DNA from: Aquiluna borgnonia
Lineage (GTDB): Bacteria > Actinomycetota > Actinomycetes > Actinomycetales > Microbacteriaceae
Assembly (NCBI RefSeq): GCF_013283855.1
Contig: NZ_CP054056.1
Location: 682,001 to 746,000 of the forward strand
Length of the DNA stretch: 64,000 nucleotides
Reading direction: 5' to 3'
The notes beneath the pieces are model-generated. The model was not told the DNA's origin. It saw only the letters and a list, made by a program, of their open reading frames with translations, and did no database searches. This document shows, piece after piece, positions 45,559 to 54,829 of the stretch (positions within the stretch are counted from its first letter, which is position 1; each line of letters begins with the position of its first letter). The position numbers and the translations under genes were made by a program.

Positions 45559-46137
45559 GTGCTAATAGCTCTCACCGGTGGTATCGGATCAGGTAAGTCA
45601 ACCGTGGCCCGGCGCTGGGTGGAGCTCGGTGCCACCGAGATTGACGCGGACGTTTTGGCGAGGGATGTAGTCGCTCCAGGAACAAAAGGCTTGGCACTGG
45701 TGGTTGAGGCGTTTGGGTCTAAAATCCTGAGCCCTGATGGATCTCTAAATCGAGCCGCGCTAGCCGAAATTGCCTTCTCATCTGAGGGCAATCGAAAGAA
45801 ATTGGAGAGTATTTTGCACCCGCTCATCCAAGAGGCCGCCCAGAAAATCATCTCAACCCAGTCAGGACCTGTGGTCTACACCATTCCACTTTTTGTTGAA
45901 TCAAATTCTCCACTCAAGTTTGATGCGGTTGTGACTATCAGCTGTCCCGAGCAGGTTCGAATTGATCGCCTGGTTCGAGACCGGGGAATGGCCTGGGAGC
46001 AGGCGCTGGCGAGGGTGAAGGCTCAGGCAACGGATGCTCAGCGTGAAGCTGTTTCGGATCACGTTATTGACTCAAACTGTGACCTCAACGAACTGATCAG
46101 TCGGGCCGATCGCGTGTTCGCAGAACTGGTTGCCTGA
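45559..46137 (+). CDS. coaE: Dephospho-CoA kinase
   Basis: Adds the 3'-phosphate in the last step of coenzyme A synthesis. The 192-residue protein begins [17 protein letters not shown] (P-loop at residues 7-14), has a [13 protein letters not shown] substrate-binding stretch, the HPLI motif and a lid with RDRGM. GTG start 17 bases after the rpsA terminator. coaE follows rpsA in many actinobacteria. The 3' end is four bases before the uvrB ATG. No C-terminal UPF0157 domain, which mycobacterial CoaE carries, is present. Confidence 0.95.
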
Positions 46138-46141
46138 ACGC

Positions 46142-48208
46142 ATGGATCCTCAGGCGAAACCTTTCAGAGTAGTAAGCCCATATCAACCCTCGGGTGATCA
46201 GCCAAAGGCAATAAAGGAACTCGCCGAGCGCATTCGGGCGGGCGAGCGAGACGTTGTTCTACTTGGGGCCACCGGTACTGGTAAATCAGCAACTACCGCT
46301 TGGCTAATAGAAGAACTCCAGCGACCAACCTTGGTTATTGCCCACAACAAAACCTTGGCGGCCCAGTTGGCCAGCGAACTGCGAGAGATGTTTCCGGAAA
46401 ACGCAGTTGAGTATTTCGTGAGCTACTACGACTACTACCAGCCAGAGGCTTACGTCCCTCAAACCGACACCTTCATTGAGAAGGACTCGACCATCAACGA
46501 GGAGGTTGAGCGACTTCGCTACTCGGCAACCATGTCCCTGCTATCAAGACGAGACGTGATTGTGGTGGCGACCGTGTCCTGCATCTACGGCCTGGGGGCT
46601 CCAAAGGAGTACTTAGCGCAGTCCCTTCCACTTCAAGTTGGTCAGCGCATCGACCGGGATGAGTTGATTAGGGCGCTGGTTCAAATCCAGTACCAGCGAA
46701 ATGACATTGAATTCACCCGAGGAAATTTCAGGGTAAAGGGCGACACGGTTGAAGTGATTGCCGTCTACGACGAGGAAGCCACTCGCATCGAATTCTTTGG
46801 GGATGAGATTGAAAAGATCTACCGAATCCATCCGCTGACCGGGGAAATCTTGATGGAGCGCGATTCGGTGGCCATCTACCCAGCCTCTTACTATGTCGCT
46901 CCCGCCGAGCGGATGGGGCAAGCCATTGAGGCAATCGAAGAGGAGCTCGAGGTTCGCTACCGAGAGTTTGAGCAGCAGGGCAAACTTCTAGAGGCTCAGC
47001 GCATCAAGATGCGAACAACTTTTGACCTCGAGATGATCAGGGAGCTCGGCTTTTGCTCCGGCATTGAAAACTACTCGCGACACATCGATGTCAGGGCCGT
47101 TGGAGAGCCGCCAGCCTGCCTGCTGGACTATTTCCCCGAGGACTTTCTCACCGTGGTGGATGAGTCTCACGTAACAATCCCGCAGATTGGGGCCATGTTC
47201 AACGGCGATTCTTCAAGAAAGCGCACCCTCGTTGAGCATGGCTTTCGTCTACCCTCAGCTTTGGATAACAGACCACTGCGATTCGAAGAGTTTTTAGAGC
47301 GGACCGGTCAAACCCTTTACCTCTCAGCGACACCAAGCAAGTATGAACTTGAGAAATCCGACGGAGTGGTGGAGCAGATCATTCGACCCACCGGTCTGGT
47401 CGATCCCCAAATCGTTGTGAAGCCAGCCAAGGGCCAGATTGATGACCTGCTGGAGGAGATCAAACTCCGCACCGAAAAAGACGAGCGAGTGCTCGTGACA
47501 ACCCTAACCAAGCGTCTGGCTGAGGAGGTGACGGATTACTTCACCGAGATGGGAGTTCGGGTCAGGTATTTACACTCTGACGTTGACACGCTGCGAAGGG
47601 TCGAGCTGCTGCGTGAGCTGCGTCAGGGAATCTTCGACGTCCTAGTCGGCATCAATCTGCTTCGAGAGGGACTAGACCTACCTGAGGTATCGCTGGTTGC
47701 AATTTTAGATGCCGATAAAGAGGGCTTCCTGCGATCCACCACATCACTCATCCAAACCATTGGCCGCGCGGCAAGAAACGTGAACGGCGAAGTTCATATG
47801 TATGCCGACAAGATAACCGCTTCAATGGCTCGGGCCATCGACGAGACGAACCGCAGGCGCGAAAAACAGGTTGCCTACAACACTGCTAACGGCATTGATC
47901 CGCAGCCGCTTCGCAAAAAGATTGCTGACATCACCGACCAGCTGATGCGCGAGGAATTAGACACGGAAACCCTGCTCGAGGAGCTCAAAAAGGAGCCAAA
48001 ACGCAAAGTTGGCAGCGTCCCGATGCGCGGTCGGACCAACATTGGATCCATGGGATCAAAGGCCCTTCTCGACACCATCCTGGAGCTTGATGTTCAGATG
48101 AAGGCTGCTGCTGGTGCTCTCCAATTTGAACTTGCGGCCAGAATTCGCGACGAGATTTCAGAGTTGAAAAAAGAGCTGCGTCAAATTGAAGCAGCCGGTC
48201 ACGCATAG
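46142..48208 (+). CDS. uvrB: Excinuclease ABC subunit B
   Basis: Damage-verifying helicase-like subunit of nucleotide excision repair. The 688-residue protein (ATG at 46142; a TTG four codons upstream overlaps coaE and is less likely) has the Walker A GATGTGKS (Lys48), the aromatic beta-hairpin region [12 protein letters not shown] that inserts between DNA strands, DESHVTIPQ (motif II), TLTKRLAEE and QTIGRAARN (motif VI), and a C-terminal UVR domain (about residues 640-680) that binds UvrC. It is followed by uvrA and uvrC in one run. Confidence 0.97.
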
Positions 48209-48217
48209 GATTCTCAA

Positions 48218-51067
48218 GTGAGCATACAAACCCCAGCAGGCGCCAAATTGTCCATCAAGGGCGCCAGAGTTCACAACCTCAAGAACCTCAACCTTGAGAT
48301 CCCAAGAGATGCCCTTATTGTTTTCACGGGACTATCTGGATCTGGGAAGTCCTCGCTTGCCTTCGACACGATTTTTGCGGAGGGTCAGCGCCGGTACGTT
48401 GAGTCACTCAGTGCCTATGCCAGGCAGTTTTTGGGGCAGGTTGACAGGCCTGACGTTGATTTCATCGAGGGTCTCAGCCCAGCTGTTTCCATCGACCAGA
48501 AGTCCACCAACCGAAACCCTCGCTCCACGGTTGGAACCATCACGGAGATCCACGACTACCTGAGGTTGCTCTGGGCGAGAATTGGCGTCCCGCACTGCCA
48601 CCAGTGTGGTGAGGTGATCTCCAAACAGACTCCGCAGGCCATCGTCGATCAACTACTGCAGCTTCCCGAGGGGACCCGCTTTCAGCTGCTCTCGCCGATC
48701 ATTCAGCAGAAAAAGGGTGAGTTTCAAGACCTGTTTGCCTCGCTGCAATCCCAGGGTTACGCCCGAGCAGTGGTCGACGGCGAAACCGTAATTCTTGCCG
48801 AGGCAAAACCCCTCAAGAAGTCTTTCAAGCACGACATCTCGGTTGTCGTGGATCGACTGGCCATTAAGTCAGATATCGGCTCCCGCCTGACGGACTCTGT
48901 GGAGACCGCTCTGAAGCTGGCCGATGGCAGGGTGGTGGTTGACTTTGTCGACCAGGGGACTCAGAGAACCTTCTCCGAACGACTCTCATGCCCAAACGAG
49001 CACGAGATTGTCCTCACAGAGATCGAGCCGCGAACTTTCAGCTTCAATGCTCCATTTGGTGCCTGCCCCGACTGCTCGGGGCTTGGAACCAAGATGGCGG
49101 TTGATTCCGAACTGGTAATCGGCGACCCGGGTGCCAGTATCAACGAGGGTGTGATTTTGCCCTGGTCAACTCAAGGCAAGGGTCTCTACAGCTACTTCAC
49201 GCGACTGCTGGATGGGCTCACCAAGGACCTCGATTTTTCTCTCGACACCCCCTGGGAGAAACTGGGCGAAGAGACTCAGGCAGCCATCCTGCACGGCAAC
49301 GACTTCGAGGTTCAGGTCAAGTGGCGCTCGAAGTACGGGCGCGAAATGCGCTACACCTCTGGGTTTGAAGGTGTGCTTCCATACGTGGAGCGCCGCTATC
49401 TTGAGGCTGACTCGGATTGGGCCAGGGGTAAGTGGTCAGAGTTTCTCAGGGAGATACCCTGCCCCGCCTGTGAGGGCGCCCGCCTGAGGGCTGAGGTGCT
49501 GGCGGTCAAGGTTCACGGCGCATCAATCCACGATGTCGCTCAGATGAGCCTTGGAAACAGCTACAAATTTTTTGAGCAATTGGAACTGAGTGAACGTGAG
49601 GCCACGATTGCAGCCCAGGTTCTGCGAGAAATCAGAGCCAGGCTCGAATTCCTTTTGGCAGTCGGGCTGGACTACCTCTCGCTCGAGCGAGCAGCCGGTT
49701 CGCTATCGGGTGGCGAAGCGCAGCGCATTCGCCTTGCAACCCAAATCGGCGCCGGCCTAACCGGCGTCCTCTATGTTCTCGATGAGCCGTCTATCGGCCT
49801 GCACCAGCGCGATAACCTCAGGTTGATTGAGACTCTGGTCAGGCTCAAGAACCTAGGAAACACCTTGATTGTGGTGGAGCATGACGAGGACACCATCAAG
49901 ACTGCGGACTGGTTGGTAGATATCGGCCCAGGTGCCGGGCTCAACGGTGGAGAAGTGGTTCACTCCGGAAGCTATAAGGACATCTTGAAGAACAATAGGT
50001 CGATCACCGGGGACTACCTCGCGGGAAGAATCAAAATCGAAACGCCTCAAAAGCGCCGCAAAGTAGATAAAACTCGCAAGATCAAAGTTGTCGGAGCTCG
50101 GGAAAATAACCTGCGAAGCGTCGACGTTGAGTTTCCGCTCGGTGTCATGACGGCCGTCACCGGAGTTTCTGGCTCTGGAAAGTCTTCGCTTGTGAATGAC
50201 GTGCTCTACGAGGTCCTGGCAAACAAGCTAAATGGAGCAAAGGGTGTGGCAGGTAAGCACACCCGTATTGAGGGGCTGGAGCAGTTAGACAAGGTCGTGC
50301 ACGTTGACCAGGCGCCGATTGGAAGAACTCCAAGATCAAATCCAGCCACCTACACCGGCGTCTTTGACCACGTTAGAAAACTGTTCGCCGAGACTCCCGA
50401 GGCAAAAGTTCGCGGCTACCAGCAGGGCAGATTCTCCTTCAATGTCAAGGGCGGCAGGTGCGAAACCTGCGCAGGTGACGGCACAATCCGAATTGAAATG
50501 AACTTCCTGCCAGATGTCTACGTGATGTGTGAGGACTGCAAGGGGGCTCGGTACAACCGAGAGACGCTTCAAGTGCGCTACAAGGGCAAGTCAATCGGAG
50601 ATGTGCTGAACATGCCAATCAGCGAAGCGGCTGAGTTTTTTGCGCCGATAAATTCCATCGCTCGATTCCTGAACACTCTTGTGGACGTGGGTCTTGGCTA
50701 TGTAACACTTGGGCAAAGTGCCACAACCCTCTCCGGGGGTGAGGCGCAGCGCGTCAAACTGGCTACCGAACTGCAGCGCCGGTCAACCGGAAAGACCATC
50801 TACGTCCTGGACGAACCAACCACGGGATTGCACTTCGAAGATGTTCGTAAGCTCCTGCTGGTCCTTTCAGGGCTGGTAGACAAGGGCAACACGGTAATTG
50901 TCATCGAGCACAACCTCGATGTGATTCGATGCGCCGACTGGGTTATCGACATGGGACCCGAGGGCGGCTCGGGAGGCGGTCTGGTGATTGCCGAGGGCAC
51001 CCCGGAGCAAATTGCCAAGGTGCCGCAGTCCCACACCGGCAAATTCTTGGCGGAACTTCTGGGCTGA
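48218..51067 (+). CDS. uvrA: Excinuclease ABC subunit A
   Basis: Damage-sensing ATPase that loads UvrB. The 949-residue protein has two ABC modules: Walker [13 protein letters not shown] near residue 37 and GVSGSGKSS near residue 648, ABC signatures [14 protein letters not shown] and [15 protein letters not shown], and zinc-finger cysteines ([17 protein letters not shown] with CEDCKGA). GTG start with AGGA seven bases upstream; the same bases read TAGGAT at -12 to -7, so a leaderless start cannot be excluded. One base separates its stop from uvrC. Confidence 0.97.
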
Positions 51068-51068
51068 A

Positions 51069-53846
51069 ATGGCCAATGAACTCAGTTTCCGCCCGGCAAC
51101 CGGTGAGATACCCACCCAACCGGGGGTCTACCGCTTTCTAGATTCCGATGGGCGCGTGCTTTATGTCGGAAAGGCTAAGAACCTCAGGGCAAGGCTCTCC
51201 AATTACTTTGGTCCGCTGAATTCGCTGCACGAGCGCACCCAGCGGATGTTGCTCAGCGCCAGCGATGTGAAGTGGACGATTGTCGACTCTGAGTTTGAAG
51301 CTCTGCAGCTCGAGTTCATGTGGATCAAGGAGTTTGATCCGCCGTTCAACGTTCGCTTCAAAGATGACAAGAGTTACCCGTATCTTGCGATCAGCGTCAG
51401 TGACGAGGTCCCACGAACTTTCATTACCCGCCGAAAGGACATGCGCGGGGTTAGGTACCTCGGCCCCTACACCCAATCCTGGGCGATCAGGGAGACTCTC
51501 GACACCCTGCTCAAGGTTTATCCGGTTCGAAGCTGCTCCTCGGGCACCTATGAAAGGGCCAAGCGACAGGGTAGGCCCTGCCTCCTGGCAGAAATCGGGA
51601 AGTGCTCAGCGCCTTGCGTAGACCGGATAGCAAAAGCCGACCACAAGGCCCTGGCCAAACGCCTGGGAGATTTTCTTGCCAGTGGCAACGAGACTTACAT
51701 CGAAGAACTTCGCGGTCGAATGGCAATCGCCTCAGAGACCCAGAACTATGAGCTCGCTGCTCAGTATCGGGACGATGTTTCGGCCCTGGAGAAGGTTTTG
51801 GAGAGATCCGCACTGGTGTTTGCAGATCACACCGATGCTGATTTGCTGGCTATCTCCCGGGATGAGCTAAGCGCTGCCGTCTCCATCTTCATCATTCGCG
51901 GTGGCCGAATTCGAGGAAATCGCTCAATGGTGGTCGACCTAGAGCTTGACCGCAGCAATGAAGAGCTGATCGAGTACCTGATTCAGGAGCTCTACACCAA
52001 GGGAAAGCGCGGCCCAGAGGCGGAAATCCCGAAACAGCTGCTGGTGCCGGTGCTTCCAACTGACCAAGAGCAGCTCCAGCAGTGGCTAAGTAAGCTTCGC
52101 GGCTCCAAGGTTGACATTTCCGTCCCATCGCGAGGAGATAAAGCCAAATTGCTTGGCACGGCAACTAAGAATGCCGAACAGGCCCTTCACAGCTACAAGC
52201 TAAAGCGCAGCAGTGACTTCACAGCCAGGGCCGACGCGTTAGCCGGGATCCAAAAAGCGCTCCGCATGGCGAACGCTCCGCTGAGAATAGAGTGCTTTGA
52301 CATCTCTCACCTTGGCGGGACCGGGACTGTTGGCTCAATGGTGGTCTTTGAGGATGGGCTTCCTAAAAAGGACCACTACAGGCGATTTAATTTGGAAACC
52401 GCAGACGACACCGAGTCCATTTATCAAGTTCTACTTCGCAGGCTGAAGTACCTAACCCAGGAGCAAAGCGAGAAATTTAGCTATCGACCGTCCTTGCTTT
52501 TGATTGACGGTGGCTTACCCCAGCGAAATGCCGCCCTTAGAGCGGTTGAGGAACTTGGCATCACCGGGGTAACGGTTGCAACCCTTGCGAAGCGACTTGA
52601 AGAGATTTATGTCTCTGGTCAGGATTACCCGCTTATCCTCCCGAGAACCAGCGAGGAGCTGTTTCTACTGCAGCGCATTCGCGACGAGGCTCACAGGTTC
52701 GCAATCACCGCCCAGCGGGCAAGTAGATCAAAATCCATCTCAAGCCAGCTCTTAGAAATCGATGGGCTGGGGGAGATGCGGGCGAGACTGCTGATCCGTA
52801 AGTTCGGTTCGCTCAAGCGAATTCGGTTAGCCTCGGTTGAGGAAATCGCTCAGCTTCCAGGATTTGGTCCAAAATTAGCTTCGGTTGTCCACAGTTCACT
52901 TGCGGAAACCGAAATTGTAACGCGCGCGACACGCCGAAGGACTAACCTTGTACCTCAAGTGATCAGGGGAGCCATGGACAGCGCTAGAAAGCCAGAACTG
53001 CTGGTTGTCACCGGCATGTCGGGTGCTGGACGCTCGACCGTGGGAAACGCCCTGGAAGACCAGGGTTGGTACGTAATTGACAACCTCCCACCGCAGCTTT
53101 TGGGTCCGATCAGTGACCTGTTTTCACTCAGCAAGGCGACCCTCCCGAGAATTGCAGTGATCATTGACGTCAGGGGAGGCGAGTTCTTCAACGACCTTCT
53201 GGCAAACCTGAGTGCACTCAGGGAGCGCGACATAAATGTCCAACTGCTATTTCTCGAGGCCAGCGACGCAGCCCTCGTGAAGCGTTTTGAGTCGGTCCGC
53301 AGACCACACCCACTCCAGGGCGAGGGGACCATTGTTGATGGAATTGCCGCGGAGCGACACGAACTGCTGACCCTTCGAGAGAGCGCTGATATTGTCTTTG
53401 ACACCACAGAGCTCAATGTTCACCAATTGACGAACCGAGTATCAGATGCGTTTGCGTCCACCGCACGCGGCCTTCGGATCAACGTCATGAGCTTTGGTTT
53501 CAAGTACGGCATTCCTGCAGACGCTGACCTGGTAGTTGATGCCAGGTTTATCCCAAATCCGCACTGGCAAGAGGAGCTTCGGGCTAAGACCGGAAATGAC
53601 CATGAGGTTGCCGGCTACGTTCTGGCCCAGCCAGGGGTTGCAGAATTCATTGAAAATTACACCGCAGCCTTGAGGGTTGTGCTGAATGGCTATCGGACAG
53701 AGAATAAAAAATTCGCGACCATCGCCATCGGCTGCACCGGAGGCAAGCACCGCTCAGTTGCACTGAGCAACAAAATCGCTGAAATTATCAGCCAGGAGCA
53801 AGACGTCAAGGTTTCGGTCAAGCACCGCGACCTGGGTAGAGAGTAA
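51069..53846 (+). CDS. uvrC-rapZ: UvrC-RapZ fusion protein
   Basis: One uninterrupted 925-codon frame joins two proteins that are normally separate neighbours. Residues 1-610 are UvrC, the dual-incision nuclease of excision repair: GIY-YIG domain (GVYRF at 19-23, LYVGKAKN), UVR motif at about 205-240, RNase H-like domain with [11 protein letters not shown] near 405-415 and LLIDGG, then two HhH motifs at about 560-610. An Arg-rich linker (about 612-640) leads into RapZ (about 640-925): P-loop-like GMSGAGRS at 649-656, [10 protein letters not shown], and CTGGKHRS at 889-896. ATG 52974 (Met636) matches the usual RapZ start and has AGGGGA close upstream, so RapZ may also be made alone. RapZ senses GlcN6P and adapts RNase E in E. 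coli; its actinobacterial role is unclear. A lost stop through sequencing error cannot be excluded. Confidence 0.9.
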
Positions 53847-53848
53847 AA

Positions 53849-54829
53849 GTGGCACTTACACAGGCAATTAAGGAAGAGCTCGCGAGAGCACCACTGGGCA
53901 AAGGCCTAGAACGGGCCGCGGAACTGGCAACGATTTTGCGTTTTTGCGGGGGATTGCATCTGATTTCGGGGCGCATCGCGATTGAGGTGGAGCTGGACAG
54001 CTCTGCGCTCGCTAGAAGGATCTCCAGGGCCATCCTCGAGCTCTACGGGATCCACTCCGAGCTTTCCGTCGTTTCCATGGGCGGGCTTCGTAAATCAAGC
54101 GGTTACCAAATTCGAGTTCTCAAGGAGGGTGAGCTGCTTGCCCGCCAAACCGGATTGATTGACAATCGCGGTCGCCCAGTTAGAGGCTTGCCCGCCACCC
54201 TGGTTAGCTCCACGCTGGATGAGGCTAAAGCAATCATGCGCGGGGCGTTTCTGGCCCACGGCACCCTCACTGATCCGGGACGCTCCACATCACTGGAAAT
54301 TACCGCCCCCGGCAATGAGTCGGCTATGGCGCTGGTCGGTGTTGCCCGAAGATTGGGCGTGACCGCTAAGGCTCGAGAGGTTAGAAACGTTTATCGGGTG
54401 GTTGTGCGCGACGGAGAGGGAATCACAGAACTTCTCAAGCAGATGGGATGTACCGACCAGGTTCAGAAGTGGGAAGAGCTGCGAAACCGTCGGGAAGTCA
54501 GGGGAGTGGCCAACCGTTTGGCCAACTTCGACGATGCAAACCTTCGTAGGAGCGCGCAGGCGGCAGTGGCCGCAGGAGCCAGGGTCGCCAGGGCACTGGA
54601 GATCCTGGGCGAGGATGCGCCAGAGCACCTGCGGTATGCAGGCGCCCTTCGGCTTCAGCACCGCGATGCCTCGCTAGACGAGCTGGGAAGACTTGCCGAG
54701 CCTCCGATGACCAAAGATGCCATAGCCGGTCGAATCAGAAGACTGCTGGCCACCGCAGACCGAAAAGCACAGGAAATGGGAATTCCCGACACTGAAAGTG
54801 CGATTACAGATTTACTGGATGAAAACTAA
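53849..54829 (+). CDS. whiA: WhiA, sporulation/cell-division transcription regulator
   Basis: A DNA-binding protein conserved in Gram-positives; in Streptomyces it drives cell-division genes with WhiB. The 326-residue protein has an N-terminal LAGLIDADG-like domain (about 80-215) with [15 protein letters not shown] and a C-terminal helix-turn-helix domain (about 240-325) containing [25 protein letters not shown] start two bases after the rapZ stop. In mycobacteria yvcK lies between rapZ and whiA; it is absent here. In a non-sporulating cell the target is probably division genes. Confidence 0.95.

Follow-up and report, generated by a model that had tools for sequence, protein, structure and literature searches.

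In the actinobacterial gene cluster described in the available part of PMC4255298, uvrC, rapZ, yvcK and whiA lie in this order and are followed by gap, pgk and tpi. In Streptomyces, the accessible text of PMC3781837 presents ftsZ as a target of WhiA and whiA itself as autoregulated, and it places one WhiA-autoregulated promoter, whiAp2, just inside the gene located upstream of whiA. The same source gives GACAC, in either orientation, as the core of the WhiA site in Streptomyces venezuelae. The RapZ protein of E. coli is a tetramer, for which oligomer formation and the binding of ligand or RNA are reported in the part of PMC5737377 that was available.

Here we describe a locus at which uvrC and rapZ occupy one open frame. 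It is contained in a stretch of 64,000 nucleotides, referred to below as the window, which was taken from a genome of one contig (1,362,706 bases, 99.74% complete) belonging to an Aquiluna-like genus of the Microbacteriaceae.

Results

One open frame encodes complete UvrC and RapZ

Reading of the sequence from the ATG at 51069 to the TAA that ends at 53846 revealed no intervening stop. This corresponds to a single frame of 925 codons, as claimed in an earlier note on this DNA, which had been made from the letters alone. The genes in and around this frame, all on the forward strand, are the following.

46130..48208, + strand: uvrB (NCBIfam TIGR00631 and NF003673), upstream in the same gene run
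48218..51067, + strand: uvrA (NCBIfam TIGR00630), its stop one base before the uvrC ATG at 51069
51069..52904, + strand: UvrC part of the fused gene, residues 1-612, with GIY-YIG, UVR, RNase H-like and HhH regions (Pfam, NCBIfam)
52974..53846, + strand: rapZ from its free start, Met636 of the fused frame, with complete N and C domains (Pfam, NCBIfam)
53849..54829, + strand: whiA (TIGR00647, 310.2 bits against a cut-off of 44.1), directly 3' of rapZ with no yvcK between

The statement of the same note that both proteins are complete was borne out by the order of the Pfam domains and by scores above the NCBIfam cut-offs. The UvrC match covers residues 1-614 (NF001824, 855.6 bits against an equivalog cut-off of 451) and the RapZ match residues 644-922 (NF003828, 341.9 bits against an equivalog cut-off of 244). 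In the UvrC half, Pfam placed GIY-YIG at 18-91, UVR at 209-242, the RNase H domains at 256-375 and 395-546 and the HhH motifs within 560-612, and in the RapZ half it placed the N domain (PF03668) at 643-797 and the C domain (PF22740) at 803-922. Both halves are thus complete, and the occurrence of two whole conserved proteins in one frame is far beyond chance. Alignment to 2nrt_A indicated that the DISHL, DGG and HRFA stretches of the UvrC C-terminal nuclease, which we take to be catalytic, are kept, and the RapZ half aligned to the solved chain 5o5q_A with its active-site stretches kept. When the whole fused protein was searched against its own genome (G000, E <= 0.001), a single match was obtained, hence no additional copy of uvrC or rapZ.

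A structure model of the fused protein displayed two folded halves with a tether between them. The last helix of the HhH region extends to about residue 622, the linker has a pLDDT of about 31-33, with values below 50 at residues 618-639, and at a pTM of 0.43 the relative placement of the UvrC and RapZ halves is not predicted. The linker is Arg-rich and, according to the model, predicted to be disordered.

From 46130 to 54829, uvrB, uvrA, uvrC-rapZ and whiA are closely packed in a single run. Located 3' of whiA is a superoxide dismutase-like gene (174 bits, under the model cut-off of 363), and 3' of the latter are putative gap, pgk and tpi genes, assigned by eye from length, order and sequence. 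The yvcK/CofD family (PF01933) was found in none of the 22 genus genomes (G000-G021), and the same model responded in 10 of 14 control genomes.

The linker is a translated spacer that carries a candidate promoter

The segment joining the two halves was compared with the corresponding spacer in the genus. Of 22 genus genomes, 20 contain both genes, that of the window included; G007 and G019 (55% and 77% complete), which yielded neither a uvrC nor a rapZ locus, are excluded from the genus counts. The following features were recognized in the window.

52905..52973, + strand: linker, residues 613-635, the old uvrC-rapZ spacer, now translated (alignment with the 19 genus relatives)
52921..52928, + strand: (CG)4 tract (sequence and spacer comparison)
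52926..52939, + strand: conserved 14-mer GCGACACGCCGAAG, WhiA-box-like, with a GACAC core (genus comparison)
52943..52948, + strand: TAACCT, presumed -10 hexamer of a rapZ-whiA promoter, conserved with the box
52965..52970, + strand: AGGGGA, presumed ribosome-binding site of rapZ (sequence)

Alignment of the spacers located the block GCGACACGCCGAAG-NNN-TAACCT at a distance of 42-49 nt upstream of the rapZ ATG. The block is exact in the window and has 0-1 mismatch at the rapZ locus in 19 of the 20 genus genomes, the only exception being L014, where it is degenerate with 5 mismatches; shuffled upstream stretches differ from it by about 6 mismatches on average. The rapZ ATG occupies the identical aligned place in all 20 genomes and is preceded by GGGG in 18 of them (L020 has GAGGG and L013 none). 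At a tolerance of up to 3 mismatches, a 24-mer holding the block has a single occurrence in the window's genome. Weak box-plus-hexamer matches, also with up to 3 mismatches, were not enriched in this genome (23 against 33 in the reversed control), so that only near-exact sites carry weight. Scanning of the junction for sigma-70 promoters gave no consensus promoter, and a terminator scan reported no terminator-like site inside 52905-52973.

A GACAC core thus stands upstream of a likely WhiA target, as it would in a WhiA-bound promoter. From this box we infer binding of WhiA, and the block would then represent a WhiA-controlled promoter of rapZ-whiA. The Arg-rich linker described in the earlier note does exist, and it proved to be translated spacer with a conserved WhiA-like box and -10 hexamer; it is Arg-rich because the block, read as codons, gives part of its sequence. 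The internal start proposed there, Met636 at ATG 52974 with AGGGGA at 52965-52970, was confirmed in position and is usable for RapZ. Taken together, the conserved element, the ATG and the ribosome-binding site make the idea of two products stronger than the earlier note had it, and this one gene probably gives both a fused protein and an ordinary RapZ.

Variants of the element were noticed in several relatives. The KACHI24 genome (L007/L240/L260, G006) carries the exact 14-mer twice before rapZ, 27 bp apart, and the second copy runs into the ribosome-binding region. In L010, L015, L017 and L019, the TAA within the presumed -10 hexamer serves as the uvrC stop, so that stop codon and promoter share bases.

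The WhiA-like box occurs at other sites in the genus

A search of the 22 genus genomes with the 14-mer, allowing at most 1 mismatch, yielded 37 matches, as opposed to 10 with the reversed control. Twenty of the 37 are the rapZ sites, KACHI24 being counted twice, and 17 are other sites. Eight of these 17 were inspected: 3 are located before ftsZ, two of them identical in sequence, and 5 before a MerR-type gene, both gene names being assigned by eye. In the window's own genome, a second near-exact site precedes a MerR-type gene. Sites before ftsZ or the MerR-type regulator are L259, L261, L262, L254-L258 and G000:C1:834770. As judged from these sequences, the presence of the box before ftsZ and the MerR-type gene suggests a small WhiA regulon.

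Five loci of a nearby genus, g11, were read by eye (L197, L198, L200, L201 and L203). There the box stands in inverted orientation (CTTCGGCGTGTCGC or a close variant) before TAGACT or TAGAAT, upstream of rapZ, as may be the case for a protein-binding site. A forward copy of the box is also present in L200, and a near copy occurs downstream in L203. For g102, a second nearby genus (L202, L215 and L225), inspection by eye found no box before rapZ.

The fusion is limited to one species among those examined

The earlier note had raised the same fusion in sister species as a point to look for. That it is common to them was rejected, since none of the 19 genus relatives with both genes carries it; in these, the uvrC stop lies 27-67 nt ahead of the rapZ ATG. 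In a set of 80 named loci, uvrC and rapZ are close on one strand in 69, of which 13 are genus genomes again, and fused in none, and both genes were found in 18 of 20 further regions, with no fusion. The first search gave ten loci from the family and order, none of them fused, and no fusion occurs in two further sets, of 35 loci (window apart) and of 7 loci, several of which are genomes already counted. In 299 family and 149 phylum genomes, every uvrC-to-RapZ match among those listed, window apart, has at least one stop, the matches counted being those that continue into RapZ and start no later than residue 30 of the slice. Candidates with a long frame were discarded because uvrC stops before rapZ (G024, G030, G038, G045, G057, G066, G120, G228, G343, G377, G412, G425, G429 and G441). 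In agreement with the earlier note, which knew of no description of this architecture, the papers listed for uvrC/rapZ and for UvrC fusions mention no UvrC-RapZ fusion in their titles or abstract starts.

The nearest relatives share about 79% protein identity with the window's genome. In trees of each half, the window lies beside L002-L006 (supports 99/99 and 95/90). Its end branch is 0.17 for UvrC and 0.17 for RapZ, which is ordinary in both trees, so that a pseudogene or relaxed evolution is not supported. A broken rapZ was observed in one relative, L015 (G002, a metagenome assembly), in which a frame change leaves an open frame of 152 aa, either through error or as a pseudogene.

Small indels in the spacer offer two possible routes to the fusion

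On the spacer sequences, indels at the (CG)4 tract or just upstream would determine if the frame is closed by a stop or continues into rapZ. L010, L015, L017 and L019 have already lost the early uvrC stop, and their uvrC ends at the hexamer TAA, which indicates that UvrC tolerates a longer tail. Between the UvrC domain and the block, the window has one base fewer than L015, and the distance from block to ATG is 46 nt in both. Starting from L015, L017 or L019, loss of one base upstream would be enough to avoid the TAA and enter rapZ in frame. The window also has an out-of-frame TAA at 52918-52920 beside the (CG)4 tract, so that a KACHI24-like layout followed by compensating indels is a possible origin as well; our analysis ranks neither of these candidate routes above the other.

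Loss of one stop codon, the event suggested in the earlier note, is not enough by itself, because a KACHI24-like start needs compensating changes. The fusion of neighbouring genes proposed there is upheld, while the simple route to it is replaced by small indels which, as seen in the spacers, shift the stops. Spacer lengths of 90, 91, 93, 102 and 123 were taken from the end of one tblastn match to the start of the next and depend on the match ends, the frame and the stop positions being the firmer measure.

Discussion

A probable fusion of operon neighbours with a surviving internal promoter

We consider it probable that the locus represents a species-level fusion of operon neighbours, near-neutral in effect, in which the internal promoter survived and free RapZ is still made. 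The fusion itself is probably real, young and incidental. Small indels in the uvrC-rapZ spacer would have put the uvrC stop out of frame, and ribosomes on the long uvrC transcript would then pass through translated promoter DNA into RapZ, producing a UvrC-RapZ protein of ~100 kDa. RNA polymerase would also start inside the gene, near TAACCT and under the control of WhiA, and translation from ATG 52974 would give free RapZ, then WhiA. The fusion is probably recent and near-neutral, and the cell would tolerate it because free RapZ continues to be produced. Since a flexible linker leaves both halves foldable, we propose that the fused protein works as UvrC and carries a tethered RapZ. As RapZ of E. 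coli forms tetramers (PMC5737377, in its available part), the fusion could join mixed RapZ oligomers, which might be hindered by the tether.

An assembly or sequencing indel would account for the frame in another manner: the true base count would differ, uvrC would end at the hexamer TAA or earlier, and there would be no fusion. The restriction of the fusion to one genome, a spacer one base off that of six relatives, the (CG)4 tract in the junction and the existence of frame breaks in assemblies of relatives, such as that of rapZ in L015, are all compatible with such an error. However, the genome is a single contig and 99.74% complete, and the longest single-base run in 52881-52980 is 4. Moreover, a comparison of the 64-kb window against 120 kb of KACHI24 gave 78 matching KACHI24 frames, which cover 61,766 bases of the window, and not one of them was split into two nearby frames, internal stops in this comparison being taken as upstream extensions of stop-to-stop frames or as antisense frames. 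Since no gene was split, we regard an indel as unlikely, though possible at the junction itself. We also give a low probability to a real frame whose fused product is unimportant, being cleaved in the linker or made at trace level, while clipped UvrC and promoter-made RapZ suffice. An Arg-rich linker predicted to be disordered would agree with this, as would the kept RapZ start and promoter-like element, but the terminator scan reported no terminator-like site inside 52905-52973.

The intact halves with their ordinary branch lengths, together with the tetrameric state of E. coli RapZ given in the available part of PMC5737377, could also be read in favour of a selected bifunctional enzyme, in which the joining of excision repair to RapZ would have created a novel regulated function, such as oligomerisation driven by RapZ or a UvrC that senses nucleotides. 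Such an enzyme appears very improbable, the fusion being present in one species only among those examined and the linker being explained as translated spacer and promoter DNA. With two products made from two promoters, the WhiA-controlled one doubling as linker coding sequence, we would equally hardly expect the fused form, a UvrC tethered to the RapZ oligomer, to be a bifunctional protein maintained by selection that couples excision repair to cell-envelope nucleotide sensing.

With the near-neutral fusion of operon neighbours as the preferred reading, the locus appears to offer a snapshot of such neighbours fusing in a compact genome while the downstream gene keeps its own promoter. Regulatory DNA would have become a protein linker with the promoter sequence kept. 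If expressed, the fused protein would be a natural test of UvrC with a large C-terminal partner and of RapZ oligomers with a tethered member. The Aquiluna-like genus is a freshwater one and presumably non-sporulating. Within it, the locus also draws attention to a WhiA-like box upstream of rapZ-whiA and of ftsZ.

Comparison with known systems

As a UvrC protein (excinuclease ABC subunit C), the first half has all domains in order and scores above the equivalog cut-off, the difference being that its frame continues without a stop into RapZ. Likewise, the second half has both domains of RapZ, as known from SCO1952 of Streptomyces and Rv1421 of M. tuberculosis, above the equivalog cut-off, and the gene keeps its own start and the promoter-like element conserved in the genus. 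In contrast to these proteins, it is in addition encoded as the C-terminal portion of a fusion with UvrC, and yvcK, the usual neighbour of rapZ, is absent from the window's genome. With respect to the actinobacterial cluster as presented in the available part of PMC4255298, the order of the remaining genes is the same, whereas in the window uvrC and rapZ are fused, yvcK is lost, uvrB and uvrA are directly upstream, and a superoxide dismutase-like gene lies between whiA and gap. The closest parallel to the regulatory arrangement is whiAp2, as far as it is described in the accessible text of PMC3781837. The box of the window differs in that it precedes rapZ, that the coding frame around it runs on into the gene that follows, and that its binding by WhiA is a prediction. 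Both systems have in common a GACAC-type box located inside the upstream coding frame and feeding whiA.
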